Origin: an uncultured Prevotellaceae bacterium
Lineage (GTDB): Bacteria; Bacteroidota; Bacteroidia; Bacteroidales; Muribaculaceae
Assembly: GCA_900317325.1 (NCBI GenBank)
Contig: ONGE01000008.1
Location: forward strand, 1-64,000
Length of the DNA: 64,000 nucleotides
Direction of reading: 5' to 3'
Positions 4,994-61,874 of this stretch are shown here, one piece after another. The notes below the pieces were generated by a model, which was given only the letters and a program-made list of their open reading frames with translations, ran no database searches and was not told where the DNA came from. The position numbers and the translations under genes are program-made. Numbering within the stretch: position 1 is the stretch's first letter; each line of letters opens with the position of its first letter.

Positions 4994-5043
4994 CAATAAA
5001 AGAGGGTAACTGATTGATTTTCAATCCGTTACCCTAATCTCTG

Positions 5044-5129
5044 CGGAAAGGGAGGGATTCGAACCCACGGTACGCAAAGCGTACAACGGTTTTCGAGACC
5101 GCCCCGATCGACCACTCCGGCACCTTTCC
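5044..5129 (-). tRNA. tRNA-Ser (anticodon CGA)
   Basis: Read on the minus strand, GGAAAGG opens an acceptor stem closed by CCTTTCC, followed by discriminator G. The anticodon loop is CTCGAAA (anticodon CGA), there is a long variable arm typical of tRNA-Ser, and a GGTTCGAATCC T-arm. CCA is not encoded. The 3' end faces the integrase, so it is the probable prophage attachment site. Confidence 0.93.
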
Positions 5130-16715: not shown

Positions 16716-19700
16716 TCATTTCACAAGCGACATGTTGATCTGCAGACCGTAGTTGCTGCTCGTCGTCGGATAGGAATTGGTCGAGACAAGCGGCGTGTTG
16801 GCCTGGTAATCGAAGTAAGCGCCCAACGTGATACGCTTGCTCAACACATAGTTAGCGGTGAAGTTGACCGACCACGTGCGAGTGCCGTTCTGAGGTTTAG
16901 CTGTAGGTTTACTGAAATCGCCTTGTGAGTCGTCCTCCGAGATCTTCCACTCACGGATGAGCGAGGTGTTGTTCGACATCTTAATGTTCAAGTTGAGGGT
17001 GAGGTCATTATTCACGTTCTGCTGCTTGGCCTTGATCTTGAGCACTTGGTTAAAGTTAGCAATCTTGTAGCTGCCACCCACAGTGAACGACTTGCTCGAC
17101 GCCTCGACCAGCTTACCTGCTGAAGGGTTGAGCGAGAGTTTGCGTTGAATGTCATATTGCAGATTGAGCGAGAGATCGTTGAGGAATGTCGCATCAAATC
17201 CAATGACAGGTGCAAACTTCTCGTTCAAATTCACCGTAGCGATATTGTAAGGCGACGTGGGTATAGGATATGGGATATTACCGCTTCTGACAGCGTCCTT
17301 AGTGAAACCGAGGCCATCACCAATAGTTACCCAGTCGCTATAGGAGTTATAAGAACCGACCTCGTAGGTGCACTCGTAATTGTGCTTGAGGTTGAAGGAC
17401 TTGAACACGCGTTTGAAGAATGGTATACGCATCAAGCCATCGTAGGTGATACGCCAGTTGGGAAGGATGGACTTCAAACCCGGGAAAGGATTCAAATCCA
17501 CTTTCTTGGCATCCTTGCCCGAATAGGCGGCCATAAAGGCCGGAATCAGCACATCGCTGCTGAAAGGATTGACAGCTCCATATTCTATATTGTAGGTGCT
17601 GCCGGCCAATTGCGTTCCCCTCAGGAAGCCACGATCAGGATAGGTTTTACCCATGTATTGCTCCTGCAACCTCTGGGTAACGACAGGTATGTTGCTCAAG
17701 AACTTCTCAAATACCTCGCTCTTGTAATTGTCATTCATGTCAATACCCTTGAAAGCAGTTGCGAGGGCCATGTGAGTCTTGATGTAGCTACCGCCGTAGA
17801 GAATCGACGGATCAGCAAACATGAACTGAATCTGACTGTCTCTTTTATCGGTACGGTTGCCTTTAAGCGTGATCTTGAGGCCAGATATTGGCTCAAGAAC
17901 AATCTCGGCATTGAATTCCTTGGCGTTAGAGTAGATGGCAGGAGTTGTCTGGCTCTCATCACCCATCAGCCAGTTACGACTCATGGCTTTTTCAATATAG
18001 GATTGACCTGCAAAACCAAAGGCAAAGTCCAGACCAGGTGACATCACATCATAGTGTGTGCTCTGGCCGAAGATGTCACCGATTTCGGGAATAAACTGCG
18101 GAACCGTGAGCGATGTCGTGTGCTTCCATTTCACGTTAATGCTGCGCACACTCATCATTACACGGCTCAGGTACTGGGCCGACTCGGTAAAGAAATTCTT
18201 GGTTTCTTCTTTTTGGACTTCAAGGACTGTGAATTTGAGATTCTCCTCGCCCAACGTTTGAATTTCAACGTTGTCCTTGTCCTTTACCTTGTATTCAATC
18301 TTGAATGGTTTGTCATCGGTTGTGGTGGCTGTCACCTTGACGTTCTTCACACCCAACTTGTGATTGATGACCAGTGCCGAGTCGGGGCTGAGCTTCAGGG
18401 TGCGGGAGAATTTCTTGGGCTTCTCCTTCTTAGGCCGTTGATTATTGTTACCGCGCTTGGAGTTCTTGCTCGAGAAGCGTTCATCCACTTTCTTGAGATA
18501 AGGAATCTTGCTATAGAACTGCTCAAGACTGAAACGGCCTTCGAGATTGCGTGTCGTCTGATTAATGATCGTGTTTCCTGACGAAATGCCATCGATAACA
18601 GTTCCGCGATCCCATTTATAAGTGGTATTGTAGGTGGCACTGGCCGTAATCCAGCTCAAAATCGGAATCTGATTGAACGGAGCCTTATAGTCGGCTTTGA
18701 AAGTCTGATTATAAGCCCACGGAGTACCCAAGCCACGTATTGACATCATCACCGAGTCTCGCCAGTCACGGTAAAAATCGGGGTGGAGCTTGCGACTGAC
18801 TTGTCCCACAGGTTCCAGAATGTGGGCAGTGGTGTTGCTGTTGAACGACAACGTGAGCGACTTGATGGGATTCCAAGCCAGCGCAAACTGACGATCCCAA
18901 AGGAAGTTCTTGCTGACCGCTACAGGCAACTCGACATCAATACCCGTCTCGTTGCGTGTCTGTTGCTCATAATAGTAGCGCGAGATGGTCGTCTTGAACG
19001 ATATGTTAGAAGGCAGCCAATGCAACTCCCAGTCCCTGAAGAACTTCATGTTCTTGTTCTTCTCATTGATGAAATGGGAGAAGGGCTTGAACGGCTTGGC
19101 GTAGGGTGTCCAGCTGTAATTCATCGACCCACGATAGTCGTTAGTGTTCTCATAGACATTGTCCGGGTCATTGAGGTGCTGCTTGCTGAAGGAGTAGCTG
19201 AACGAGAAGTTGGCAGGATCCCATGGCATGGGATTCTTCATTGTCTTCACGTCGAACTTGAGGTCCGAGATGGAGAAATTCTGTGCTATGCGATTAGTCA
19301 CAGCATATTCCATGATACTGTCTTTCTGGTGTTTGGTCTCACAGGAGGCAACAGCTTCCTCGAGTCTGACATCCTGATCAAGAGGATTATACTTGGGTGT
19401 CGTCTTTTCGTTGCTATAAGAATAATAGACCGGAGCACGCAGTTTCACCTTCTCGGGGATGAAACGACCCAAATCACCCTGCACAGCAATATTGTACTGG
19501 TCAAAATTATCCAATCGACGGTTCGAGAGGCTCTGGTCCACGGAACCGAAGCCTTCGGTCTCCTTATGGAATCCCATATTGACGGTAGCTATATCACTCA
19601 TGTTGAGCGTCATGGTGGCACGAGCTGCCCAACCGCCCTCGGAATCAAAGTCGGTCACACGCAACTCATCGACCCAAACGACACAACTCTTGGTCGTGGG

Positions 19701-22700
19701 TGAATTGTTGCGGACACCGATGAGCATCACCCTGACCTTACTCAATGAGGGATTACCCACCACATATACCTTATTATTGGGATGCTCCTCGTCAATATCG
19801 AGATAACGCGTAGTGTAGCCCACGCCCGAAATGCCCGCCATCTTGTCGGCATTGCGGTGCTTCTTGGCATTGATCAGAACATCAAGATTGATGTCGAGCA
19901 TATTCTCCTCGGGCCAAACAGTGAGGCGGTCGCTCGTTCTGTTGGTGCTGTACTTGCCGGGAGGAGTTACGGTCAATGGAATTTCATACTCGTAGTAGTT
20001 GTTCTTCACATCGGAACCTAAACGGACGAACAATGAAATATCACCGTTTCGCAGGTTGGTTTCGTTGCCGATGGTTGCCTCGTTGTGAACAAACATCTGG
20101 AGACGCTTGTAGATGCGCAGATCAAGATCAGTGTTGCGGTAAACGCCACGTGCGTCACCTGCATCAAGGTCCTCAACCGAAAGCTGCATCGACTGCTCAT
20201 TGAGCTGGGTAATCTGAGACTGACCGCTATCGATGATACGAGACACACCGGGCGGGAGAACATAATTCACCGGCTCACGTGAGTTGTTCTCCTCAATATT
20301 AACGGTGTTAATGCTGATGGTGCCATTAGCGGGCTGATCACCACGCAAATTGAGGTTATACTTGTAGTTGCGCCATTCACCACGCACGAGTTCCAGCGAG
20401 GCAAAGCGCAAGTGGGTCGTTGCACGGAATCCTGTCATGAAAATGCGCATGAAGCGAATCGTCGAGAAGTCCTGAATGCTGCCGACCTTCTTCTTGTAAT
20501 CGGAAAGGGGAATCGTGAACTGATACCAGGTTGCGGTCTGTGGCACACGGTTGCGCGTTTGCACATTGGCCACCTGCTTGTCGGTGATATAGTTCATACC
20601 CACTTTGAGGGAGTCGGGATGGAGAGCTATACGGTACTGGAAATAGCGCTCATACTCATTCAGGGTATTGTCCTGGTTGATATCCTCGACATCGGGCGTC
20701 GATCTTGAAGTCTGATACTGACCATCGCTGACGTCGCTCTGTGACAACGAGTTGCCATCAGTTCCGTTATAATGCTTGTAACGGTCGTTGATGGAATACT
20801 TGTTAAGATCGTAATAATCATTGCGATAGAAAGCGTAATTATCTCCAGCAGGATCACGGAACGGAGAGAAAGGATCGTTTTCCATTTCTGAGATTGTCGA
20901 TGCAGGCAGTACCCTTCTCAACGCACTTAGATAATTTGCATAAGTTTTATGCTGGAACTCTTCTTCATTCGACAAGCCGTCAAAACCAACGTCCTGACGG
21001 ATACGGGCTCCAGTTGCGTTGTCAAAGGCATAGGTCAATGACGTCTGTGTGGCAACCTTACCCCAAACTGTATTGGTGACAGCAGTGGAGTCGTTATCAT
21101 TTGAAGGAAGACCGTTCTCATAACTCTTGAGACCATCCTTGAGAATATCCTCACTCACTTCACCCAAGTTGAAATACAGATAGCCGCCATCACGGTTATC
21201 TAATTCCTCATCCATGAAAGGATCCAACATCCAAAATTGGATGTATTCGATATTGGACTGCTCAAAGTTGGTGTTATCGATTTTGCGCATAATACCACCC
21301 CACCTTTTCTCGGGGAAGAGCAGTTTGCCTTCAGAATCGACGTAGGTTGTATCAAGGTTATACGGACCACGTTCTTGGGGGTAGAACGAGAGATTCAACG
21401 TCTGAATAACAGATGACTCACCATAGTTGATCTCTCGGCCGGGGAACACCTCGTTAAAGAGCACCTCACGAGCATAGGGATATGATAATGCGTCTAAGTC
21501 ATTCTTGATATAACCAGGCGCATAGGAAGAATTGCGCTGAGTAAACAAGCGGTCAATATAGTACCATGACAGCAACGCACGATTCATGCCGTAAGTCACA
21601 TTATTACTCAATGAAGCCTCAGGGAACAAAGCGCCTTCAGTCGGATCAGAGGGTGCCGATGCCAGTCCCCACGAGTAGGGTGCGCGGATGTCTATACCTG
21701 ACTGAGTTGATTCAAAATCATCAATATAGGAGCTACCGGAATTGGAGCCAGTCTTGGCTTGATGGGGAACCAACTGGGCAAATTCACCCAGGAACGAGAT
21801 GCTTGACGGAGCAACCGCGTTAACTGTGGGAATCTTGTTAAGAAGATTGGTGAGCCACATGAACTGATTGTTATAAGAAACATTGGCTCCCCAAATCGTG
21901 TTGTTGACCAATTCACTACCGATGGCCACCTTATCACCGATGGCCTTCTCGCCGTAGTGCATTACAGTGGCTCCGACATGGAAGTTCTTATTGAACGCAT
22001 AGTCAAGGTCTAAGCCCAACAGCGTCTTGCGTTGCATGCTGAAGGTGGACTGGTTCTCACACGTGGCGCTGATGTTGGTTCCGGCATCAATAATGCTCTG
22101 GTTCAAGATAGTGACAGTACCCATGACGTAGTCAACGCTATAGTCACTGCCCTCGTTCAAGGTCACACCGCCTGCTGTAACGGTCACAGATCCTTTAGCC
22201 ACATTAGTAGCATTCAGCTTGATGACGTTACCTCCTGAACCGGACTGATATTCACCGGCAAGAACAAATTTGTTCTTGTCACTGAATTGTTGAGCCACAA
22301 TGAGGGTTGAGTCATAGAGTTCGGTATAGATATAGTCTTTGGCGATTTGGTCATTTTTGAACTGCTTACGGAGGTGTTCACCGAACGGTTCTACTACAGG
22401 GAAAATGATCTTACCGGTAGAGGACTGCACAGTGTATTTCTCAATATAATCAAATCGACCGTCGATGTTGGGCTCCTGATTGGCGTCCAAGCGGTCGAGG
22501 TTCATTACCTGCAACAGTGGCTTGCCGTTGATTTCACCAGCGGGGATATAAGTCAACTCATTACCGGTTGTGTCGCTCAAGTACTTGATATTGAGCTTGA
22601 AATGATTCTTCTGAATTGAAACTGCACCCAATGCATAGACGTTCTTCATGGCCAGGTCCCACATACGGAACTCGGGAGACGATGTCGTTCCCTTCAGCAT

Positions 22701-24239
22701 TTTAACATAGAGCGACTGATCATTAGAAGTGACATTACCCGAGAACTCACCCACCTGATAGGTGTTGCCACGGTAGGTGTACTGATAAGCCACAGCAAGA
22801 ATCTCATCGCTGTTCAGCGCAGTCTTGAGCATAATATAGCCCAGATCGGCGTTAAGGGTGTAATCTGAAGAGGTCAACAGGCGAGCACTCTCAATTTTCT
22901 CATAATCCTTACCACCCTCAAAATCATATTCTTTCAACGGAGCCAACGCGGTCGAAGCCTTGCTCATGTAACGGGCATCGGGGTAAGAGTTCCTGATTTC
23001 TTCCATCAGAGTGTTGGAAGAGTTATCAGGCATTGAGCCAGTTTTACCGATCCAGTGAGGGTTATTGATATTCCTCTCTTCACTCTCACCCAGGTCCATA
23101 AAGGCCATGATGTTGCGCGACTCATTATAATTGCTGCGCTTGTTGGTGATCCAGACCTCGATGCGCGTGATTTGAATACCGGACGCGCTCATAGGAAGCT
23201 TTGAGCACCAATTGTCGTAATTGTCCCTGAAGAAGTGTGAAAGGAAGAAGTTGCGGTTCTGGTCATACTTGTCGGCCGTGATATAGAACTCAGTGGTTTG
23301 TGAGCCGCCCTTGGAGTTCACCGTCTGGGACACACTGTTCTGCTGTGAAACGAGTGCTGTTGCCGTCAGTTTACCGAACTGAAGTTTAGTTTTGATACCG
23401 AACAAGGCTGCACTACCATGGATGAGCGACGAACCGGTAGTCATGCTCACATTACCGGCCTCGATGTTCTTGATGATTTCATCTTCCTTGCCTTCATAGG
23501 CCAGTTTGAGGTTCTTGGAGTCGAAATCAAATGTCGCGCCAGTGTTATAGGACATGTTGAAGCGCATCTTATCACCTACAGTGGCAGTGATATTGGCCTG
23601 AATCTTCTGTTCAAAGTCAAAGTAGGTCTTCCTGCGTTGTGACACTGACAATGAAGGATTGTCGGTAGAATTACTCTTGACACCCATATTGACAATGACC
23701 GAACCCGTTGTCTTCAACTGAACGCCACCAGGACCAAACACTTTCTCGAGCGGTCCCATGCCGAATTGCATATCCAGGAAATTAAACGGGTCTTGCTCTT
23801 TATCCTGAGCACTCTCGGCATTCTTTTGACGGTAGTACTCCATCATCGAACGCCTGAAGTCGTTGTTGCTGAAGTCGTCGGCCGACATGATATAGGGAGT
23901 CACGATATCATAATCGCCCAAGCGAGTGTGAATCACATAGCATCCGGTCTCAGGGTCGAACTCGACTACCGAAGTGATATTTGAAGGATCCTTGAGGTCG
24001 GCGGCATATTCTCCAAGCCCCTGCACATCATCATAGGAGCGAGGAACTGTAGGCTTGACATTGAAGTGCAAGTCAAGTACGGGAGCCTGCTGCTGTTGAA
24101 CCGAAGGCCGTGTATCGGGAGGTGGTGGCGGTGGAGGTAATGTGCTGGTCACATATTGCGCCAGCATGTCAAAGCCCGCCCACATCGCGACGAGCATGCC
24201 TATAATGACAAGAAATATTATCTTTTTTCGGTTCAGCAT
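16716..24239 (-). CDS. sprA: T9SS outer-membrane translocon SprA (Sov)
   Basis: A 2507-residue protein, the size expected for SprA/Sov, the giant beta-barrel through which T9SS cargo crosses the outer membrane. It has an N-terminal hydrophobic segment (KKIIFLVIIGMLVAMWAG), a proline run (LPPPPPPPDTRP), many aromatic-rich beta-strand stretches and a C-terminus ending in a strand-like segment (YGLQINMSLVK). The frame is uninterrupted. It follows ruvA by 59 bp, a linkage I recall from Porphyromonas (sov near ruvA). The rest of the T9SS is not in the window. The upstream proteases may be cargo. Confidence 0.95.
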   Translation of the reverse strand: MLNRKKIIFLVIIGMLVAMWAGFDMLAQYVTSTLPPPPPPPDTRPSVQQQQAPVLDLHFNVKPTVPRSYDDVQGLGEYAADLKDPSNITSVVEFDPETGCYVIHTRLGDYDIVTPYIMSADDFSNNDFRRSMMEYYRQKNAESAQDKEQDPFNFLDMQFGMGPLEKVFGPGGVQLKTTGSVIVNMGVKSNSTDNPSLSVSQRRKTYFDFEQKIQANITATVGDKMRFNMSYNTGATFDFDSKNLKLAYEGKEDEIIKNIEAGNVSMTTGSSLIHGSAALFGIKTKLQFGKLTATALVSQQNSVSQTVNSKGGSQTTEFYITADKYDQNRNFFLSHFFRDNYDNWCSKLPMSASGIQITRIEVWITNKRSNYNESRNIMAFMDLGESEERNINNPHWIGKTGSMPDNSSNTLMEEIRNSYPDARYMSKASTALAPLKEYDFEGGKDYEKIESARLLTSSDYTLNADLGYIMLKTALNSDEILAVAYQYTYRGNTYQVGEFSGNVTSNDQSLYVKMLKGTTSSPEFRMWDLAMKNVYALGAVSIQKNHFKLNIKYLSDTTGNELTYIPAGEINGKPLLQVMNLDRLDANQEPNIDGRFDYIEKYTVQSSTGKIIFPVVEPFGEHLRKQFKNDQIAKDYIYTELYDSTLIVAQQFSDKNKFVLAGEYQSGSGGNVIKLNATNVAKGSVTVTAGGVTLNEGSDYSVDYVMGTVTILNQSIIDAGTNISATCENQSTFSMQRKTLLGLDLDYAFNKNFHVGATVMHYGEKAIGDKVAIGSELVNNTIWGANVSYNNQFMWLTNLLNKIPTVNAVAPSSISFLGEFAQLVPHQAKTGSNSGSSYIDDFESTQSGIDIRAPYSWGLASAPSDPTEGALFPEASLSNNVTYGMNRALLSWYYIDRLFTQRNSSYAPGYIKNDLDALSYPYAREVLFNEVFPGREINYGESSVIQTLNLSFYPQERGPYNLDTTYVDSEGKLLFPEKRWGGIMRKIDNTNFEQSNIEYIQFWMLDPFMDEELDNRDGGYLYFNLGEVSEDILKDGLKSYENGLPSNDNDSTAVTNTVWGKVATQTSLTYAFDNATGARIRQDVGFDGLSNEEEFQHKTYANYLSALRRVLPASTISEMENDPFSPFRDPAGDNYAFYRNDYYDLNKYSINDRYKHYNGTDGNSLSQSDVSDGQYQTSRSTPDVEDINQDNTLNEYERYFQYRIALHPDSLKVGMNYITDKQVANVQTRNRVPQTATWYQFTIPLSDYKKKVGSIQDFSTIRFMRIFMTGFRATTHLRFASLELVRGEWRNYKYNLNLRGDQPANGTISINTVNIEENNSREPVNYVLPPGVSRIIDSGQSQITQLNEQSMQLSVEDLDAGDARGVYRNTDLDLRIYKRLQMFVHNEATIGNETNLRNGDISLFVRLGSDVKNNYYEYEIPLTVTPPGKYSTNRTSDRLTVWPEENMLDINLDVLINAKKHRNADKMAGISGVGYTTRYLDIDEEHPNNKVYVVGNPSLSKVRVMLIGVRNNSPTTKSCVVWVDELRVTDFDSEGGWAARATMTLNMSDIATVNMGFHKETEGFGSVDQSLSNRRLDNFDQYNIAVQGDLGRFIPEKVKLRAPVYYSYSNEKTTPKYNPLDQDVRLEEAVASCETKHQKDSIMEYAVTNRIAQNFSISDLKFDVKTMKNPMPWDPANFSFSYSFSKQHLNDPDNVYENTNDYRGSMNYSWTPYAKPFKPFSHFINEKNKNMKFFRDWELHWLPSNISFKTTISRYYYEQQTRNETGIDVELPVAVSKNFLWDRQFALAWNPIKSLTLSFNSNTTAHILEPVGQVSRKLHPDFYRDWRDSVMMSIRGLGTPWAYNQTFKADYKAPFNQIPILSWITASATYNTTYKWDRGTVIDGISSGNTIINQTTRNLEGRFSLEQFYSKIPYLKKVDERFSSKNSKRGNNNQRPKKEKPKKFSRTLKLSPDSALVINHKLGVKNVKVTATTTDDKPFKIEYKVKDKDNVEIQTLGEENLKFTVLEVQKEETKNFFTESAQYLSRVMMSVRSINVKWKHTTSLTVPQFIPEIGDIFGQSTHYDVMSPGLDFAFGFAGQSYIEKAMSRNWLMGDESQTTPAIYSNAKEFNAEIVLEPISGLKITLKGNRTDKRDSQIQFMFADPSILYGGSYIKTHMALATAFKGIDMNDNYKSEVFEKFLSNIPVVTQRLQEQYMGKTYPDRGFLRGTQLAGSTYNIEYGAVNPFSSDVLIPAFMAAYSGKDAKKVDLNPFPGLKSILPNWRITYDGLMRIPFFKRVFKSFNLKHNYECTYEVGSYNSYSDWVTIGDGLGFTKDAVRSGNIPYPIPTSPYNIATVNLNEKFAPVIGFDATFLNDLSLNLQYDIQRKLSLNPSAGKLVEASSKSFTVGGSYKIANFNQVLKIKAKQQNVNNDLTLNLNIKMSNNTSLIREWKISEDDSQGDFSKPTAKPQNGTRTWSVNFTANYVLSKRITLGAYFDYQANTPLVSTNSYPTTSSNYGLQINMSLVK

Positions 24240-45241: not shown

Positions 45242-48097
45242 ATGAAACGATTACATTACTTACTTTTGCTATTCTTGTTCACGATGAACGCAATTCCATC
45301 CCATGCCACTTATTACATTGTAGGCAATGAGCCGATTGGATTGGGGTTTTCTCCCGATAAGGGTCGTGCCATGACCGCGCATGCCGATGGCACCTACACT
45401 ATAGAGTGTGGTTCTTTTAACGGGTATGCGCGCTTTGTATTCGCCGATAGTCTTGCCGAGGCAGGTGATTGGGACACCTTTCATGCTTCGATGAGGATCG
45501 GTCCCGAGACACTTCAGAACATTTCATGTGGCGAATGGATTTCCACCCAAAAGGCCAGTGGTCAACGAAATGACAGTGGCTATCGACTGTATGGCTCCGG
45601 TGGTTACAAATACCTGATTACTTTTGATCCTGTTAATTGGCGTTTCAGGATTGACCATGCTGGAGAATGTGATTTCATTAAGGACGGCATCTGTTATAAC
45701 ATCATTAATGACCAGGAAGTAAGCGTGACGTATTATCAAAAAGGATACTATAATAGTTGGCATTATACTGGGTCTATCACAATTCCTGAGACGGTAAGCA
45801 TGTATGGCGATGCTGATTACAGAGTAACAGCCATCGGAGACAGTGCATTCTATTATTGTCGTAACCTTACAGAAATTATTTTGCCTCAAACCATCACATC
45901 AATAGGTGTCGAAGCGTTTTATGCTTCAGACATCCAAAGAATTGATATTCCTGATCCGGTCACTTTCATAGGAGAGCGTGCATTTGCAAATAATCCTGCA
46001 CTAACCGAAATCAAACTTCCAAGTAATCTTACTTCAATTCTAGAAGGCACTTTCTTCTATACAGGCTTGACAACTATTGATATTCCTAATACTGTTCGTT
46101 TCATCGGAGATGCAGCCTTCCATGACTGTTATAAACTTGAGCGCATCAGTATTCCAGAATCAGTTAACAGCATTCGAGATTTTACTTTTTATTTATGCGG
46201 ATCATTGAAAGAAGTATCATTGCCCAACCATCTCGCCCACATTGGGTATGGTGCATTTGCTGGCTGTAGAAGCCTTCGGGAAATTGAACTTCCCGCTTCA
46301 GTCACATATGTTGAACTGGCTGCTTTCTATGAGTGTGATTCCATAGAGACTGTACGCACGCCTAGTTTGGAGGCATGGTGCAACATCGTTTTCGATGACT
46401 TTGAAGAATATGTTTCAAATCCGCTGTATTTTGCCAAGCATTTCATTGTTGGCGGTGAGGAGCAGTCGCCCCATCTGGTTATACCCGAAGGGGTGCCCGT
46501 GATCAACATGTGCTCGTTTAAAGGTTTCGAAAACTTGACCAGTGTTATCATCCCCAATTCGGTGAAAGAAATCTGTCAGAGTGCTTTTGGCCTATGTCCA
46601 AACTTGCAGGAAGTATCGTTTGGTGATAGTGTAAGAATTATCGGTAATTACGCTTTTGAATGTTGTCATGCTCTTCAGGCAGTCTGTCTGTCCACTAGAT
46701 TGAGTGACATTGGCTATTTTGCGTTCTACCATTGTAAAAGTCTTGTCGGTTTGGAACTCCCGGATGAGGTCACCAGTATAGGTACTGCCGCATTCGCTGA
46801 ATGTGAGGCACTAAAATACGTCATGTTGGGCAACGCTTTGACGACTTTACCACGATCAATCTTCTGCTACGACCACAACCTGACAAATGTGAGATATAAC
46901 GAGGCTCTGACCACAATTGACGATTATGCATTTTACCAATGTACAAATTTAGAGTCATTAGATTTGCCGGATCATGTCGCATATATCGGCGAAAGTGCCT
47001 TCGAAGATTGCAAAAGCCTGGGTAGCGGATTAAACGCCCAGTCGTTAAAAGCTATCGGGACTTGTGCTTTTAAGGGCTCTCACTTGCCATCGGTTGAGAC
47101 CAGCGACGGCTTGGAAACCATCGGCAGCAGTGCCTTCGAGAATTGCGACAATTTGTCGAATGTCATCATCCCCAGTGCGACACAATCGTTGGGTATGCGT
47201 GCTTTCTACAATTGTGCAAATCTAACTGACGTCACGCTGGGCGACAATGTGCTGGATATAGAGAAATACGCTTTCATGAATTGCACATCGCTTACCAACG
47301 TGGATTTGGGCAATGGCATCGAGAGCATTGGTGACAGCGCATTCATGGATTGTTCGGCGCTTGTCGAAATAACGATACCCCACTCGGTAACCACCATCTA
47401 TAAAGGTGCTTTCCAGAATTGTGTAGGACTGACTCAATTGAGTTTTGCCGAAGGTGTTCAAGCCATCAGAGGCCACGCTTTCTGCAACTGCAAAGGTCTT
47501 ACGGGAGTGGTTCTTCCCAATTCTTTGCTGACTATTGGAGACTATTCATTCGCCGACTGTCATGCATTAGAAAGCGTTTCATTCGGTAAATCCCTGGAAA
47601 AGATTGGCCAATATGCTTTCACCAATGATTATTCATTAACCGAAATCAAGCTCCCGAACACAGTCAAGTCAATTCAAACACATGCGTTTTCCTATTGCAG
47701 GCATTTAACGACTGTCTCGTTGGGCAAGTCATTGGAATCAATCGGCGCAAATGCTTTCTTCCAAGACAATGCATTAATGCAGATGTCTTGCATGGCCAAG
47801 ACACCCCCATCTTTGCAAACCATCACAAGCCAGATGCAAAACACGACTGTTCTATACGTACCAATCAAATCTCTAGTACTCTATCGGACTATCCTGCCCT
47901 GGAGATGGATGAAACACATCGTCGGTGTGATTGATGCCGACGTGAACGGCGACGACGAAATCAACATTGCAGATGTGAACATGGTCATCGACGCCATCAT
48001 GAGCAATGAGAGCAGCGATTTGCAGGATGTGAACGGCGACGGCGAAATCAATATCGCCGACATCAACGTCATCATCGACGCCATCTTGAACGAGTAA
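45242..48097 (+). CDS. Secreted BspA-like leucine-rich-repeat protein with dockerin-like tail
   Basis: A 951-residue exported protein. After a signal peptide (residues 1-22) comes an unassigned beta-rich domain (about 24-140), then some 28 LRR_5/BspA-type repeats (about 185-870) of the form AIGDSAFYYCRNLTEIILP. The tail has two dockerin-like calcium loops (DVNGDDEINIADVNMVIDAI and DVNGDGEINIADINVIIDAI) like those of the two S8 proteases. BspA proteins bind host proteins or other bacteria. AT-richer than neighbouring housekeeping genes. Surface delivery by T9SS is an inference. Confidence 0.9.
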   Translation: MKRLHYLLLLFLFTMNAIPSHATYYIVGNEPIGLGFSPDKGRAMTAHADGTYTIECGSFNGYARFVFADSLAEAGDWDTFHASMRIGPETLQNISCGEWISTQKASGQRNDSGYRLYGSGGYKYLITFDPVNWRFRIDHAGECDFIKDGICYNIINDQEVSVTYYQKGYYNSWHYTGSITIPETVSMYGDADYRVTAIGDSAFYYCRNLTEIILPQTITSIGVEAFYASDIQRIDIPDPVTFIGERAFANNPALTEIKLPSNLTSILEGTFFYTGLTTIDIPNTVRFIGDAAFHDCYKLERISIPESVNSIRDFTFYLCGSLKEVSLPNHLAHIGYGAFAGCRSLREIELPASVTYVELAAFYECDSIETVRTPSLEAWCNIVFDDFEEYVSNPLYFAKHFIVGGEEQSPHLVIPEGVPVINMCSFKGFENLTSVIIPNSVKEICQSAFGLCPNLQEVSFGDSVRIIGNYAFECCHALQAVCLSTRLSDIGYFAFYHCKSLVGLELPDEVTSIGTAAFAECEALKYVMLGNALTTLPRSIFCYDHNLTNVRYNEALTTIDDYAFYQCTNLESLDLPDHVAYIGESAFEDCKSLGSGLNAQSLKAIGTCAFKGSHLPSVETSDGLETIGSSAFENCDNLSNVIIPSATQSLGMRAFYNCANLTDVTLGDNVLDIEKYAFMNCTSLTNVDLGNGIESIGDSAFMDCSALVEITIPHSVTTIYKGAFQNCVGLTQLSFAEGVQAIRGHAFCNCKGLTGVVLPNSLLTIGDYSFADCHALESVSFGKSLEKIGQYAFTNDYSLTEIKLPNTVKSIQTHAFSYCRHLTTVSLGKSLESIGANAFFQDNALMQMSCMAKTPPSLQTITSQMQNTTVLYVPIKSLVLYRTILPWRWMKHIVGVIDADVNGDDEINIADVNMVIDAIMSNESSDLQDVNGDGEINIADINVIIDAILNE

Positions 48098-54621: not shown

Positions 54622-56748
54622 TTATCCTTGCTGCATCGTGAGCAGGAATTCCTCGTTGTCACGGGTGCGGTCCATGCGCTCCTTGACAAACTCCATCGCC
54701 TCGACCGAGGTGCGGTCGCTCAGGAAGCGGCGAATAATCCACATCTTGTTCAGGGTGTCCTGCGGCAGGAGCAAGTCGTCACGACGCGTACTCGAAGCCA
54801 TAACGTCCACAGCCGGGAAGATTCTCTTGTTGGACAGCTTGCGGTCGAGCTGCAACTCCATGTTACCGGTACCCTTGAATTCCTCAAAGATGACCTCGTC
54901 CATCTTAGAACCGGTCTCAGTCAGTGCGGTAGCGATGATGGTAAGACTTCCGCCACCCTCGATGTTGCGCGCTGCGCCGAAGAAACGTTTAGGCCTCTGC
55001 AACGCGTTGGCATCAACACCACCCGTCAGGATCTTGCCCGAAGCAGGTGCTATGGTGTTATAAGCGCGAGCCAGACGAGTGATCGAGTCCAGCAAGATGA
55101 CCACATCGTGACCGCATTCAACCAAGCGTTTAGCCTTGCTTAACACCAGGTCGGCGATTTTCACATGACGGTCGGCAGGCTCGTCGAAGGTTGATGCAAT
55201 CACCTCGGCATTCACGCTGCGGGCCATGTCGGTCACCTCCTCGGGGCGCTCGTCGATGAGCAGGATAATCATATAGGTCTCGGGGTGGTTCTCCGAGATG
55301 GCATTGGCGATCTCCTTCAGGAGCATGGTCTTACCGGTCTTGGGTTGTGCCACGATCAGTCCGCGCTGTCCCTTTCCGATCGGCGAGAACATGTCCACCA
55401 CGCGTTGTGATACCGTGGGATGGGTCTTGCTCACAAGATTGAATTTCTCATCAGGGAAAAGAGGCACCAGGTGCTCAAACGGCACGCGGTCACGCACATA
55501 AGCGGGCGTACGGCCATTGATGAGACGTATCTCGCTCATCGGGAAGTACTTCTCGCCCTCCATGGGCGGACGAATCGTTCCCTCGATGACATCACCGGTC
55601 TTGAGGCCATAAGCCTTGATTTGTGACTGCTGTACATAGATATCATCGGGCGAAGTCAGATAGTTGTAATCGCTGGAACGCAAGAAACCGTAACCCTCGG
55701 GGGCAATATCAAGCACGCCTTGTGCCTCAAGAATGCCGTCAAAATTGTAGGGCTGATCCAGATAAGGATTCACCTCGGCAATCTGCTGCTGTTGCTGCTG
55801 CTTGATTTTACGTTTCTTGTTTTTGCTTTCCTTGACGACTTTAGGCTCCTGGATCACGATGGGAGCAACGGCGGCCTCTTCGGCAGCGCGTTTACGTTCC
55901 TCCTCGGCCCTGCGCATCGCCTCCTCTTTCTCCTCTTGGGTGCGAGGCTTGAAAGTGAAACTGCTACCGGTGTTGAAGAACGAATTCAACGAGACATCTT
56001 CACGCTCGCGACTGGAAGTCCCCGCATTTTGTTCTTTGACCTCGGCTGCCATTTCTGACATGTCATCATCCATCGGCATTGGTTCATTCTCCTCAATATA
56101 ATCATTAGAGAACTGGAAATCATCTTCCATTGCCATAGGTTGTTCCTGATTCTCCATATTGTCGAACGGCAACACAGGCTGTTCTACCACTTGCTTGGTC
56201 TTGCGGCCACGCTTACGGGCAGGCTTCTCAACCTCTTGAGCGGCAACTTCGGGCTCGGCAGGTGCCTGTTCGGGCTCGGCAGGCTGATCGGCCTGCACTT
56301 CCATGGCAGCCTCACGGGCAGCCTTCTCGGCAGCCGAAGGACGACCACGTTTACGCTTTGGAGCCTCAACGGGTGCCGGAGTTTCTTTCTCGGCAGCAGG
56401 CTGCTCGGCCTCGGCGGGTTTCACTTCTTCTGCTTTCTCGACGGGAGCCGGTTTGTCTTCTGACTTATTTTGTTTTTTGGAACTGCTTTTTTCAGTATTT
56501 ATGACGGCGTCATCTTTAATCACCTCGTTACCGTTGGCTTTGGCAGCGGGTTGACGAATGCGCTCACGGCGACGACGCGAGGGAGCCGGTTCAGGGGTAT
56601 TGGCGGCCTCAACCTCGGCCTGCGTGTCAAGGACCTGGAAAATGAGTTCACCATGATCCACCGAGTCGGGTTTCTTGATGCCCATAGACTTAGCGAGCTC
56701 GCGCAGTTGCTCGTCGCTCATAGCATTTAATTGATCGATGTTATACAT
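54622..56748 (-). CDS. rho: Transcription termination factor Rho with large disordered insert
   Basis: A 708-residue hexameric RNA helicase. Rho_N helical domain (1-45), then a low-complexity region of about 280 residues (46-327) rich in Ala, Glu, Pro and Lys with two AT-hook-like patches (KRKRGRPS at 131 and RKRGRKTK near 178) and a Gln run. The cold-shock RNA-binding domain follows (about 335-410), then the ATPase with P-loop APKTGKT (468-474) and [16 protein letters not shown]. Bacteroides Rho has a comparable disordered insert, reported to drive phase separation. First gene of rho-ruvX-def. Confidence 0.96.
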
Positions 56749-57072: not shown

Positions 57073-57080
57073 TAATTTTG
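57073..57080 (+). promoter_or_regulatory. -7 box for the CCA-Ogt fusion gene
   Basis: TAATTTTG, 20 bp upstream of the ATG at 57100 and only 20 bp from the -33 element of the divergent rho promoter. Confidence 0.45.
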
Positions 57081-57099: not shown

Positions 57100-59040
57100 A
57101 TGGATATTGACCGTAAAAAAATAGCTGAACACGTCAACCTGCCTGTCATGAAACTGGTGGGCAATGTGGCCGATGAATTGCACCGTGAATGCTATGTCGT
57201 GGGTGGATATGTCAGGGACATCTTTCTGGAGAGGCCCAGCAACGACATGGACTTTGTGACGGTTGGCAGCGGCATCGAGGTGGCAAAGGCAGTGGCCGGT
57301 CGCATTGGTCGCCGCGCTCATCTGTCGGTGTTCCGCACCTATGGCACAGCGCAGGTCAAGACGCGGCAATGGGAATTGGAGTTCGTAGGCGCTCGCCGCG
57401 AGTCCTACCACCGCGAGAGCCGCAACCCCATCGTCGAGGACGGCACCCTTGACGACGACCAGAAGCGTCGCGACTTTACTGTCAATGCCATGGCCATCTG
57501 CCTGAACAAGGAGCGATACGGTGAGTTGCTGGATCCGTTTGATGGCATCGGCGACATGGAACGCCGCATCATCCGCACTCCTCTCAACCCCGACATCACC
57601 TTCAGCGACGACCCGCTGAGGATGATGCGTGCCGTACGCTTTGCCACACAGCTGGACTTCGATATCTATCACGAGACTTTCGAGGCCATCAAGAAAAACG
57701 CGCATCGCATCCACATCATCACCCGCGAACGCATTGCCGAGGAACTGATGAAAATCATGCGCAGTGCACAGCCCTCTCGTGGCTGGCTCTTGCTGGACCA
57801 ATGTGGACTGCTGCCACTGATTTTCCCTGAGCTGGCAGCACTCAAAGGCGTTGAGACCGTCAACGGACGCGGCCACAAAGATAATTTCATGCACACCCTT
57901 CAGGTGCTTGACAATGTTGCTGCAGCCAGCGATAACGTGTGGCTGCGTTGGGCCGCGTTGCTGCACGATGTGGGCAAGGCCCGGACCAAGCGTTGGGATC
58001 CGCAGCAGGGCTGGACATTCCATAACCACAATTTCATTGGCGAGCGGATGATACCTAAGATTTTCGCCAAGATGCGTCTGCCGCTCAACGACCACATGAA
58101 ATATGTGAAGAAACTCGTGGGCCTGCACATGCGTCCCATCGCCCTTGTTGAGGACGAGGTGACCGACAGTGCCGTGCGTCGCCTCCTCTTTGATGCCGGA
58201 GACGACATCGATGACCTGATGACCCTGTGCAAGGCCGACATCACCAGCAAGAACCAGAACAAGGTGCAACGCTTTCGCGAGAACTTTGACCTGGTAAAGC
58301 AGAAGCTTGTGATCATTGAAGAGAAAGACCGGGTTCGCAACTTCCAGCCACCTGTCGATGGTGAGGAAATCATGACGACATTCGGTCTGGCGCCCTCACG
58401 CCCTGTAGGTTACATCAAGGACGCCATCAAGGACGCCATTCTCGACGGCGACATCACCAACGACTATGCCTCGGCCTACCAGCTGATGCTGGCCAAAGCC
58501 GCCGAGCTGGGAATAGAACCCGTCCACAAGGGCCAACTGTGCTACACCACAATGGAAACGCCGGTAGGCACCCTCTTCATCGGAGCCTCCCATCTAGGCA
58601 TCGCTGTGATTGGTTGGAATCAAGAAGAGATCAGCAAGATTTCCAAAAAGCTGAAATTGCAGCCTGTCGAGGCCGTCACTCCGCTGCTTGCCGCCTGCGT
58701 CAAGCAATTGGGTGAATACTTTGATGGCAAGCGTCACGAGTTCTCACTGCCACTGCACCTGACAGGCACCGACCACCAACTCAAGGCTTGGAACGAACTG
58801 CGACAGATTCCTTATGGCCAGACCATTTCTTACGGCCAGCAAGCCACCCGTTTGGGCAACCCAAAGAGTTCTCGCGCTGTGGCTCAAGCCAATCACAACA
58901 ACCCTGTTGCCATCGTCATCCCCTGCCACCGAGTCATCAACGCCGACGGCAGTCTTGGCGGCTATGCCCCGGGCCCCGAAATCAAACAGACACTTCTTGC
59001 CCTGGAACAGAAGAACAAGTCAAGGATTGACAAGGAGTAG
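57100..59040 (+). CDS. Fusion of CCA tRNA nucleotidyltransferase and O6-alkylguanine-DNA alkyltransferase
   Basis: A 646-residue two-enzyme protein. Residues 1-475 are a class II CCA-adding enzyme: CYVVGGYVRDIFLERPSNDMDF with metal Asp49 and Asp51, RRDFTVNAMAI, FSDDPLRMMRAVRFA, and an HD domain (HTLQVLD; LLHDVGKA with His289-Asp290). Residues from about 481 are a complete Ogt/MGMT: PVGTLFIGASHLGIAVIGW, KAWNELRQIPYGQTISYGQQA, and the active-site IPCHRVI with acceptor Cys609. The frame is continuous with no stop or strong internal start at the junction (about 58535). Each part has the length of the free enzyme. This joins tRNA 3'-end synthesis to DNA alkylation repair. Confidence 0.92.
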   Translation: MDIDRKKIAEHVNLPVMKLVGNVADELHRECYVVGGYVRDIFLERPSNDMDFVTVGSGIEVAKAVAGRIGRRAHLSVFRTYGTAQVKTRQWELEFVGARRESYHRESRNPIVEDGTLDDDQKRRDFTVNAMAICLNKERYGELLDPFDGIGDMERRIIRTPLNPDITFSDDPLRMMRAVRFATQLDFDIYHETFEAIKKNAHRIHIITRERIAEELMKIMRSAQPSRGWLLLDQCGLLPLIFPELAALKGVETVNGRGHKDNFMHTLQVLDNVAAASDNVWLRWAALLHDVGKARTKRWDPQQGWTFHNHNFIGERMIPKIFAKMRLPLNDHMKYVKKLVGLHMRPIALVEDEVTDSAVRRLLFDAGDDIDDLMTLCKADITSKNQNKVQRFRENFDLVKQKLVIIEEKDRVRNFQPPVDGEEIMTTFGLAPSRPVGYIKDAIKDAILDGDITNDYASAYQLMLAKAAELGIEPVHKGQLCYTTMETPVGTLFIGASHLGIAVIGWNQEEISKISKKLKLQPVEAVTPLLAACVKQLGEYFDGKRHEFSLPLHLTGTDHQLKAWNELRQIPYGQTISYGQQATRLGNPKSSRAVAQANHNNPVAIVIPCHRVINADGSLGGYAPGPEIKQTLLALEQKNKSRIDKE

Positions 59041-59051
59041 TCTAAAACGTT

Positions 59052-61874
59052 TTATCTTTTTCTTTTCAGAGTAGTCGCCACCAATCTCAAGCCAGTGTCA
59101 CTGGCACGAAGATTGGGAGCGCAAACGCCGCGGAAAGAGACACGACACAGGTTGGTTCCCTGGTTCCAGCAACCGCCGCGTTGCACATGTCCCTGGCTCG
59201 AATAGTTGCCAGCGGGATCGGTCTGGAATTTATCTGTGTAGAAGTTCAGCCAATCGCTGCACCACTCCCACACATTGCCGCTCATGTCATACAATCCCAG
59301 CTCGTTGGGCATCTTTTTCCCGACTGAATGGCTGGTATCCATGGCATTCTCGTTATACCAGGCTACTTCATCAAGCTCGTTGCTGCCGGCATACATGTAG
59401 TGATGGGTGTTTTTCCCTCCTCGGGCAGCATATTCCCACTCGGCCTCGGTGGGCAAACGGAATGTGATGCCGGTCATGTCGTTCAGCCTCTCGATAAACT
59501 GCTGGCAATCGTCCCACGACACCATGTCAACCGGGAAGTTTCTGCCTTTGCAATGGCTCGGGTTCTCCCCCATCACCATCTCCCACAAATCCTGAGTCAC
59601 CTCATACTTGCAGATGTAAAACGGAGAGAGTTTCACCCTGTGGGCCGGATATTCAATTTCCCAAGCCTCGTCCTCTTGCTCACTGGTGGCCCCCATCGTG
59701 AAAGTGCCACCCTCGACATAGACCATATCATTCAGCAATTTGCTCAACAGGCCTTCTTTACCCTCGGGCAAGTCAGTCAAGTCAGGTTTATCAAGTGGTT
59801 GCACAGACTCGCTATCGTCCTGCACACCCTGGTTTTCATTCACCGTCTGGAGCGCATCGTCAACGACGGTGACTGAAGAAGTATTCTCAGGTGTTGATTG
59901 TTTTTCCTCCTGCTTAACGGCATCGGCCATCTGTGTCGTCGGGCTGACTTCTTCCTCTGACATGACGATGACTTGTGCCACCGATGCCTGTCCTCGTCCA
60001 TCGGACGGGATTTGATGGATCAATGACTCGTCAAGTTCTGCTACAAGAGCGGCAAGTGCAGCGGTGTCGGGCACTTGCGGGGGAACATTCCAATCCATCT
60101 TGAAGGTGTTGTCGGTGCAACAACTGGCCTTGGCGATGGTTTTGTCGAACTGACGGTATCGCACGGACTGCTTCTTGCCGTTATTCTGGTTTTTCCAATT
60201 CCATAGTTTATCCGTTAACCGACTGTCAACATAGCCATATCGACAGGTTGTCGAATCGGTGCCTGCCTTGCCTTGGCCGCTGAAAATGAGCGCCAAATCG
60301 CCCTCGGTGTTATACTGGTAGGACTGCGTCTTGTTGTTATTGAAGACTGTTTTGTCCAACCTGTAGGAACGATCATAGTAGTCGGTCCTGAAGACATTGC
60401 GGCCTTTTTGATGCATGACCTTCTTCAGGTAGTCGATATCACGGGAAAAAGTGATGATGCTGCCGTCGCTTCCTGCCAGCTCAAGGATATCGCCCACCTC
60501 GTTCCACTTGGTCACATAGTTGACAATGTGGCCGTTGGCATCGGTCTTGGAGAGCAATGACAACCCGTTTTCGGGGTCAAAACAATAGGTGTATCGCTCG
60601 TTGAGTCCCGTACGAGAATCGTAACGTCTCACCAGCAAGCCCTGGTCATTAAAAATCAGCACCTCTTTACCCTCTAGCAAATCGGGAGAGTCTGCCATTA
60701 CAACCTTTCCCAATAAACCGTCACAGTCGTTCATGTAGGCCGATGTGGGCAAGAACAACAGATTATTGTACATCGAGCGGATGCGGTTCTTGTCCACGCC
60801 CGTGAGTTCATCGCCCGAGCAGCAGAACCGCTGCAGTTCCTCAAGAGTCACCATGGGCGAGAGATAACGTTGTTTCACCTTCTGCCGCAGCAAATCCTGG
60901 ACTTTGTCAAAATGAGGCGAATCGGGATAGCTGATCAGATAATTGTTATAGACACCGATGTTGTCACGTTCTTTGGCATCACTGAAGGCATAGTTCATCT
61001 CGAGTGACTTCACGCTGTCCAAGTATTCCGACTCAGGGTACAGGCGCACGTATTCCTGACACGCCGCCACCGTGGGCTTCAATTCATCAAGGGCACGACG
61101 GTGCAAGAGCTGCTCAACGGCATGGTTGAAACTCGATGAGGGATAGTTGGCAAGATAGGCCTTGCACGCGGCTGCATCAGGCCCCAATGCCTCAAAGGCC
61201 AGACTGTCGCGCCGCCACTCGATGGCGATTCGGTGAGACTCGTTCTGGCGGTCATACTTGTCCAGGTAGCGTTGGCAGTCGGCAAGCACGTGGCTGCGCT
61301 TGACTTTATCGTAAGCCAGCTGTTCACGTTCCTTGAGGATGGTTTGCATTTCCGGGTAATCATACAATAATTCGACCAACCGGTCATACGCCCCCTCGGT
61401 ATTGATCTGCCTCACCGTATCTATCAGATTCTTCTCGATATCGGCCTTGATGCCGGCCACCGACATCTGCAGATTCTTGTGAGACAGGAAACGGTCGGCG
61501 ATATCGCAGGCCGACGGCGTGGAGCAGGCTTTTTTCAGTTCAGCATAGGCGCTCCATGGGTCATAAGGCACAACATTGGTCAGTTTCCCACGACCCTCGC
61601 GTGTGTTCATCATCACGGCCTCGCTCAGTTGCCACACAGGCGCCAGCTGGCGGGAGATGGGTACCATCGGATTCAAGCTGCCGTCGGTCTTGGACTTCTC
61701 TTCGATTTCCTGCCAATACTTGGCTACTTTATCCAACTTTTGACTCTTCAACGCCTCAAAAACCTTGACCATGTGTTTCTGGTAATAATTGTCACCCAGG
61801 CACAGCGCGGTCTGCGAGATGCCGGCTCCAGTCACACACAACCATATACTCAAGAATAGAACCGTTCTTTTCAT
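59052..61874 (-). CDS. Large exported protein with C-terminal formylglycine-generating-enzyme-like domain
   Basis: A 940-residue exported protein. After the signal peptide, residues 25-370 are helical repeats with recurring 'YxxxYPxSxF' spacing (ACKAYLANYPSSSFNHAVEQL; NYLISYPDSPHFDKVQDLL), like BamD/TPR arrays. Residues 410-560 contain YD/RHS-like strands (RRYDSRTGLNERYTYCFDPENG). An acidic, Ser/Thr-rich linker (about 610-700) leads to an FGE-sulfatase domain (about 708-935: MVYVEGGTFTMGATSEQEDE, FRLPTEAEWEYAARGG, SGNVWEWCSDW, RGGCWNQG). Most such domains in Bacteroidota are non-enzymatic. It converges on the CCA-Ogt gene with an 11-bp gap. A -7 box TATATTTG is at 61903-61910. Confidence 0.8.
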   Translation of the reverse strand: MKRTVLFLSIWLCVTGAGISQTALCLGDNYYQKHMVKVFEALKSQKLDKVAKYWQEIEEKSKTDGSLNPMVPISRQLAPVWQLSEAVMMNTREGRGKLTNVVPYDPWSAYAELKKACSTPSACDIADRFLSHKNLQMSVAGIKADIEKNLIDTVRQINTEGAYDRLVELLYDYPEMQTILKEREQLAYDKVKRSHVLADCQRYLDKYDRQNESHRIAIEWRRDSLAFEALGPDAAACKAYLANYPSSSFNHAVEQLLHRRALDELKPTVAACQEYVRLYPESEYLDSVKSLEMNYAFSDAKERDNIGVYNNYLISYPDSPHFDKVQDLLRQKVKQRYLSPMVTLEELQRFCCSGDELTGVDKNRIRSMYNNLLFLPTSAYMNDCDGLLGKVVMADSPDLLEGKEVLIFNDQGLLVRRYDSRTGLNERYTYCFDPENGLSLLSKTDANGHIVNYVTKWNEVGDILELAGSDGSIITFSRDIDYLKKVMHQKGRNVFRTDYYDRSYRLDKTVFNNNKTQSYQYNTEGDLALIFSGQGKAGTDSTTCRYGYVDSRLTDKLWNWKNQNNGKKQSVRYRQFDKTIAKASCCTDNTFKMDWNVPPQVPDTAALAALVAELDESLIHQIPSDGRGQASVAQVIVMSEEEVSPTTQMADAVKQEEKQSTPENTSSVTVVDDALQTVNENQGVQDDSESVQPLDKPDLTDLPEGKEGLLSKLLNDMVYVEGGTFTMGATSEQEDEAWEIEYPAHRVKLSPFYICKYEVTQDLWEMVMGENPSHCKGRNFPVDMVSWDDCQQFIERLNDMTGITFRLPTEAEWEYAARGGKNTHHYMYAGSNELDEVAWYNENAMDTSHSVGKKMPNELGLYDMSGNVWEWCSDWLNFYTDKFQTDPAGNYSSQGHVQRGGCWNQGTNLCRVSFRGVCAPNLRASDTGLRLVATTLKRKR

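Follow-up and report, generated by a model that had tools for sequence, protein, structure and literature searches.

In the 64,000-nucleotide stretch analyzed here (positions 1 to 64,000 of the contig ONGE01000008.1, assembly GCA_900317325.1, hereafter the window), derived from an uncultured Prevotellaceae bacterium placed in Muribaculaceae by GTDB, one open reading frame joins a CCA-type tRNA nucleotidyltransferase to an Ogt/MGMT-type DNA alkyltransferase. The product is probably bifunctional, each half doing its usual work independently; it would have arisen by collapse of adjacent cistrons, been inherited vertically and been kept for co-production. The elements of the fused gene are listed below.

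57100..59040, plus strand: fused cca-ogt gene of 646 codons and a stop, ATG start (open reading frame list and Pfam)
57190..57576, plus strand: PolyA_pol head domain PF01743, nucleotidyltransferase, residues 31-159, with the DxD motif formed by D49 and D51 (Pfam)
57655..57840, plus strand: PolyA_pol_RNAbd PF12627, residues 186-247 (Pfam)
57886..58143, plus strand: HD domain PF01966, residues 263-348, with HDVGK at residues 289-293 (Pfam)
58144..58521, plus strand: C-terminal tail of the CCA half, which stops about where unfused relatives stop (alignment with unfused relatives)
58522..58539, plus strand: junction, a short linker VHKGQL without a stop, residues 475-480 (frame reading and alignment)
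58540..58758, plus strand: Methyltransf_1N PF02870, N-terminal domain of Ogt, residues 481-553 (Pfam)
58777..59010, plus strand: DNA_binding_1 PF01035, catalytic domain of Ogt, residues 560-637 (Pfam)
58921..58932, plus strand: PCHR motif, residues 608-611, with the acceptor Cys609

No internal stop codon was present across 57100..59040, and all five Pfam domains of the single 646-residue frame (PF01743, PF12627, PF01966, PF02870 and PF01035) exceeded their gathering scores, in agreement with the unbroken cca-ogt fusion described in the original prediction. Judged from sequence, the protein was confirmed as a complete CCA-type tRNA nucleotidyltransferase (residues 1 to ~474) followed by a complete Ogt/MGMT (residues ~481-646). 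The genome-wide profile search located both the sole PF01743 match and the sole PF01035 match of this genome (94% complete) within the fused gene. None of the best 60 of the 66 matching solved structures covered both halves, as judged by the best-scoring stretch; the matches were either poly(A)/CCA-type enzymes, aligned to the first part, or MGMT, Ada and SNAP-tag chains, aligned to the last. Neither the Ada N-terminal zinc domain nor an AraC-type helix-turn-helix was among the Pfam matches of the fused chain, which by this test is not an Ada-type fusion. Ada also holds an alkyltransferase domain in a larger chain, where the partner is the Ada regulator and no RNA enzyme is involved.

The first half is named CCA-type here, without proven equivalog status, because its NCBIfam matches lay below the curated cut-offs; the best one, to TIGR02692, reached 352 bits against the equivalog cut-off of 438.8, which speaks against a firm name. 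The label CCA-adding was adopted because of the domains, the sole PF01743 match of the genome, and the following tRNA gene without encoded CCA.

5043..5129, minus strand: tRNA-Ser (cga) with CAG in place of an encoded CCA, the only tRNA gene found in the window

The sequence of this tRNA gene is in keeping with the need for a CCA enzyme. The half shares with bacterial class II CCA tRNA nucleotidyltransferases carrying HD the PF01743-PF12627-HD order, the single match in the genome, and the motifs DxD, RRDFTxNA and ER..E, whose roles we take to be the usual ones. It differs from them in the scores mentioned above and in the complete Ogt that follows the native C-terminus. The second half has in common with Ogt/MGMT the PF02870-PF01035 pair, the PCHR motif, the arginine finger, the Asn and the Glu near the end, all presumably with their customary roles. 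Unlike those proteins, it is not free-standing, and its helix with Gln596 and mostly His599 is typical of the genus.

Conservation was evaluated in 91 fused frames, six of them partial, from 91 separate genomes of three genera. The acceptor C609 and the other residues of PCHR (P608, H610 and R611), the arginine finger R592 and the asparagine N601 were each retained in 91/91 frames, and Y578 in 90. In the CCA half, D49 was found in 85/85, D51 in 84/85, and D170 and D171 in 86/86 non-gap rows of the alignment, while H289 and D290 of the HD motif were retained in 87/88. The earlier statement that both catalytic centres are intact held up. The median ratio of nonsynonymous to synonymous substitution rates (dN/dS) was 0.09 for the CCA half and 0.32 for the Ogt half (176 usable pairs); this set and the set of fused genus members used for divergence comprised 77 of the 82 fused sequences of the genus, five partial or broken ones being omitted. 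By this estimate, purifying selection is acting on both halves.

The distribution of the fusion was determined in the genus of the window's genome (g1), a genus of Muribaculaceae that includes Candidatus Sodaliphilus (Candidatus Sodaliphilus fimicaballi). The whole protein was searched in 101 genomes, including the window's own, the loci were fetched and the frames were read. A fused frame was detected in 82 of the 101, and in all 82 the fused copy was the only PF01035 match. Separate genes in all close relatives, the pattern that the original prediction had named as speaking against a genuine fusion, were therefore not what the genus displays. Eleven genomes carried cca without ogt in frame (G004, G008, G012, G033, G035, G041, G043, G044, G045, G063 and G092). 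The locus of G085 was interrupted by a contig end, G059 gave a distant CCA-like match only, and no match to the fused protein was found in six genomes that are 62-83% complete (G006, G010, G078, G088, G089 and G091). Among 397 genomes sampled from the family, the same two-domain order was also found in two other genera: in a second genus (g28) it was present in 5/5 sampled genomes, and in a third (g23) in 4/9 (G122, G206, G218 and G240), and among the matches listed no further one extended into PF01035.

The open junction in 91 separate genomes from three genera, represented by many independent assemblies, ruled out an assembly artefact. The broader idea of an artefact of assembly or binning, or of a stop codon lost in one strain, could appeal to the fact that the named fused records are all titled as metagenome-assembled genomes (MAGs) or uncultured; given the 91 open junctions, its chance is negligible. 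The closest named record was JAFQZK010000038.1, a Muribaculaceae MAG from goat duodenum, with 97% identity over residues 1-646.

Outside the family, none of the matches listed in the search of the order (393 genomes) reached PF01035 beyond Muribaculaceae, and no other fusion was among those listed for the phylum (395 genomes, query residues 401-646), where, as in the order, a distant fusion could show up as two matches. A seemingly bridging match in G1043 (query residues 27-237, running across a TGA) was rejected, as the locus had no cca match. The matches of G1069, G804 and G1141 start 25-32 residues ahead of the Ogt part, and their frames of 161-423 residues are too short to contain both halves. 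Many Ogt matches listed in the phylum search lay in frames of ~350-420 residues, which we would guess are likely to be Ada-type. Among plasmids, 0/476 matching records covered 80% of the fused query at one place.

Other arrangements of CCA enzymes were encountered in these searches. In a Muribaculaceae MAG from water buffalo rumen (JAFZPB010000287.1, L078:766-2805), a HAD_2 hydrolase domain stands ahead of the CCA enzyme in one 680-residue frame. In G422, of the same order, the CCA enzyme is followed by an HD_assoc_2 region in one 898-residue frame with two HD stretches (L191:1747-4440, minus strand); end fusions of CCA enzymes in the order are therefore of several kinds. At two further loci, L274 (G075) and L276 (G007), the CCA half shifts frame at almost identical positions, between residues 353-365 and 361-366, respectively, upstream of an open junction; the change may be an assembly error or a real break.

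The layout of the junction offers a view of how the two genes were joined. The fusions connect the native end of the CCA enzyme, about where unfused CCA proteins end, to the N-terminus proper to Ogt, through a linker that is a few residues long in the genus and somewhat longer in most g28 and g23 fusions. A methionine at residues 478-495 occurred in 58/91 fused frames, so that a start of the Ogt half, considering Met alone, was not conserved. In G126 (genus g27), cca and ogt are adjacent, and the TGA stop of cca overlaps the ATG of ogt as ATGA (L188, 4413-4416); in G110, the two genes share a strand, with ogt ~0.9 kb downstream of cca (L183). The junction layout fits a collapse of neighbouring co-directional cistrons, without amounting to proof, and overlapping cistrons of the ATGA kind are a plausible precursor route as far as the sequences indicate. 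The loss of a boundary between neighbours, which the original prediction had offered as the simple explanation, gained support from the ATGA overlap in G126 and from the joining of a native end to a native start.

The history of the fusion was traced with trees of RpoB, the CCA enzyme and Ogt. The RpoB tree contained 32 genomes; of the 35 sought, the fused G021, G052 and G074 had no rpoB match, G008, G009 and G117 entered as partial proteins, and the unfused G012 and G041 stood outside the tree. In this tree, the unfused genomes formed two separate groups, G008 with G035, and G004, G045, G043, G044, G092, G033 and G063, and a single clade of the fused genus members was rejected by the approximately unbiased (AU) test (p 0.0002). 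The CCA tree recovered the same two unfused groups within the genus, while not rejecting a fused clade (AU p 0.122); the nesting of the unfused lineages was thus settled by RpoB, and the CCA tree does not decide. The fused Ogts of the genus formed one clade (100/98) in a tree from which five long-branch rows out of 96 had been removed. Read most simply, these trees indicate that the genes fused once, in the genus ancestor, and that the fusion was later lost twice. The fused Ogts of g28 and g23 formed another clade (100/99), apart from that of the genus in the free tree. A single origin of all fused Ogts, examined as a candidate history, was not rejected (AU p 0.346) despite this separation, and for that reason one and two fusion events were not distinguishable.

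The divergent neighbour of the fused gene served as a marker of the locus.

54622..56748, minus strand: rho, divergent neighbour and locus marker (open reading frame list and domain match)

A rho match was found in the fetched flanks of 71/100 fused loci and 3/45 unfused loci, in counts where loci from two sources overlap and flank lengths vary. The flank of the unfused cca retains a rho match in G008 and G035 (L158 and L161). These two genomes and G012, all with unfused cca, showed no PF01035 match at 77-87% completeness (G008 82%, G035 87%), so the alkyltransferase may be dispensable. The other unfused group had nine members in the CCA tree, eight of which carry Ogt elsewhere; six of these eight Ogts share a clade with free family Ogts, apart from the fused ones, and the remaining two sit on long branches of uncertain position. 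G004 has a second PF01035 match, which was not included in the Ogt tree. A tblastn search for Ogt relics behind unfused cca, with fused Ogts against 24 loci, recovered the known ogt genes at L183 and L188. Across the 22 remaining loci the lowest E-value was 0.005 (L178), and no relic is claimed for that reason.

The evolutionary rates of the halves were then compared between fused and separate genes as the Ogt/CCA ratio of p-distances at matched CCA distance, for pairs of fused genus members and pairs with separate genes. The ratios, fused versus separate, were 3.51 versus 3.35 at CCA distances of 0.05-0.10, 2.90 versus 2.15 at 0.10-0.15, 2.19 versus 2.03 at 0.20-0.25, 1.93 versus 1.99 at 0.25-0.30, and 1.64 versus 1.88 at 0.30-0.40; below 0.05 there were just 7 fused and 2 separate-gene pairs. 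From these values, fusion does not seem to account for the faster divergence of the Ogt half. Such similar rates also speak for an accidental fusion that merely persists, harming neither half and bringing no benefit of co-production, and this explanation is in line with the at least two losses of the fusion in the genus and with the unrelated end fusions on other CCA enzymes of the order. Against it stand the Ogt catalytic residues, intact in 91/91 frames, even though Ogt may be dispensable in relatives such as G008, G035 and G012, and we consider it unlikely.

A more ambitious explanation is that the covalent link itself is functional, with the tRNA-binding half steering the alkyltransferase to alkylated tRNA, or with alkylation of Cys609 feeding back on the CCA enzyme; this appears distinctly unlikely. 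If true, one protein would couple alkylation damage to translation, and the helix with Gln596 and His599 would be part of a changed role. This recognition helix (residues 589-607, 58864-58920) has Gln596 in 78/82 and His599 in 56/82 fused proteins of the genus, compared with 0/55 and 1/55 in free or longer-frame homologues. Both positions are placed in the DNA-recognition helix on our assumption from human MGMT. The signature may reflect mere descent, and the nine g28 and g23 fusions lack it.

The form of this explanation that concerns repair has the CCA half recruit the alkyltransferase to tRNA or RNA-rich sites; O6-alkylguanine in tRNA would be removed during end repair. The genus-specific Gln596 and His599 speak for it. 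The fusion has also been retained for long, and its Ogts apparently form two lineages, which suggests a useful pairing. However, the signature is missing from the nine g28 and g23 fusions, the relative rates are alike with and without fusion, and the net charge of the fused Ogts is not raised (medians of 2 and 0, versus 3 for free Ogts of the family and 4 for the phylum set). In addition, human MGMT handles RNA poorly owing to a clash of the 2'-OH at Gly131, as stated in the consulted passages of PMC10814553. At the equivalent position, 81/82 fused genus proteins carry Ala and 9/9 of those in g28 and g23 carry Gly; of the 55 free or longer-frame homologues, 39 have Ala and 16 Gly. The Ala would add bulk, and these sequences revealed no change expected to let RNA into the active site. 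The functional tie to alkylation of tRNA or RNA raised in the original prediction consequently found no support in the Gly131 position or in the Ogt/CCA ratio, and targeted repair is very unlikely.

In the form that concerns feedback, the entire fusion would lose stability once Cys609 is alkylated and CCA activity would fall, so that alkylation damage slows translation. Alkylated human MGMT is recognised and then degraded, according to the same passages of PMC10814553, and the chain found here has the only PF01743 match of its genome. On the other hand, those passages offer no support for degradation of an alkylated bacterial Ogt, and loss of an essential enzyme would be costly; such a damage brake is highly improbable.

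The bifunctional protein with independent halves is the interpretation we prefer. From family knowledge, the N-terminal half would add and repair the CCA terminus of tRNAs; the C-terminal half would act as a suicide O6-alkylguanine (and O4-alkylthymine) DNA alkyltransferase that accepts an alkyl group once. An ogt gene directly behind cca would have lost the boundary, giving a fusion that was inherited vertically in the genus. The fusion would be kept by tying ogt to an indispensable and presumably steadily expressed gene, which could guarantee a basal supply of alkyltransferase. This interpretation draws on the unbroken frame, the kept catalytic residues, the single genome matches, the purifying selection, the two losses placed by RpoB and the relative with overlapping cistrons. 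Several points weigh against it. Co-production needs no single polypeptide, as an operon would do. The Ogt half is less constrained, with dN/dS of 0.86 in the top pair. The fusion has been kept through wide divergence and bears the genus-specific Gln596 and His599, a possible sign that the substrate has changed. The Ogt of G126 falls outside the fused Ogt clades (best fused match 49%), so that this genome illustrates the route and is not shown as an ancestor. The rate comparison includes few separate-gene pairs at short distance (2, 5 and 9 below 0.15), and these are non-independent. The distances of the two halves are correlated in 77 fused genomes (Mantel r 0.81), and this is no argument for the fusion because separate genes in 21 genomes give r 0.72.

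A possible promoter element precedes the fused gene.

57073..57080, plus strand: TAATTTTG, 27 nt upstream of the ATG of the fused gene, fitting TAnnTTTG

We take TAnnTTTG to be the -7 element of Bacteroidetes. Of the 77 fused loci examined, 50 had a site of this type no more than 80 nt upstream, a count made without a chance control. The convergent neighbour of the fused gene (59052-61874, minus strand) encodes a 940-residue protein with a C-terminal FGE-sulfatase (SUMF1-like) domain. Elsewhere in the window, a 2507-residue open reading frame (16716-24239, minus strand) matched SprA_N (motility related/secretion protein), and a 951-residue protein (45242-48097, plus strand) combines BspA-type leucine-rich repeats with a dockerin type I match at its C-terminus. 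PF12833 had 14 matches in the window's genome, without bearing on the fusion.

Natural fusions of alkyltransferases are described in the consulted part of a review (PMC10779285), with endonuclease V or a histone-like domain as partner. AGT-EndoV of Ferroplasma acidarmanus likewise fuses an alkyltransferase to a nucleic-acid enzyme, whereas its partner is a repair endonuclease and it has only the C-terminal AGT part, as described there; the protein found here has a tRNA enzyme as partner and a two-domain Ogt. AGT-2 of C. elegans, in the same source, also has the alkyltransferase domain in a larger chain, with a histone-like partner and no RNA enzyme. No published fusion of a CCA enzyme with an alkyltransferase was found, judging by titles and abstract openings in a search that most subscription literature lies outside. 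What is new here would be two known enzymes in a new order.

In a widespread, mostly uncultured gut lineage, the fusion ties a single-use DNA repair protein to an enzyme that tRNA requires. The fused, unfused and overlapping-cistron relatives, together with the two losses, provide a natural comparison set for asking whether a protein that joins translation to DNA repair owes this link to function or to chance.
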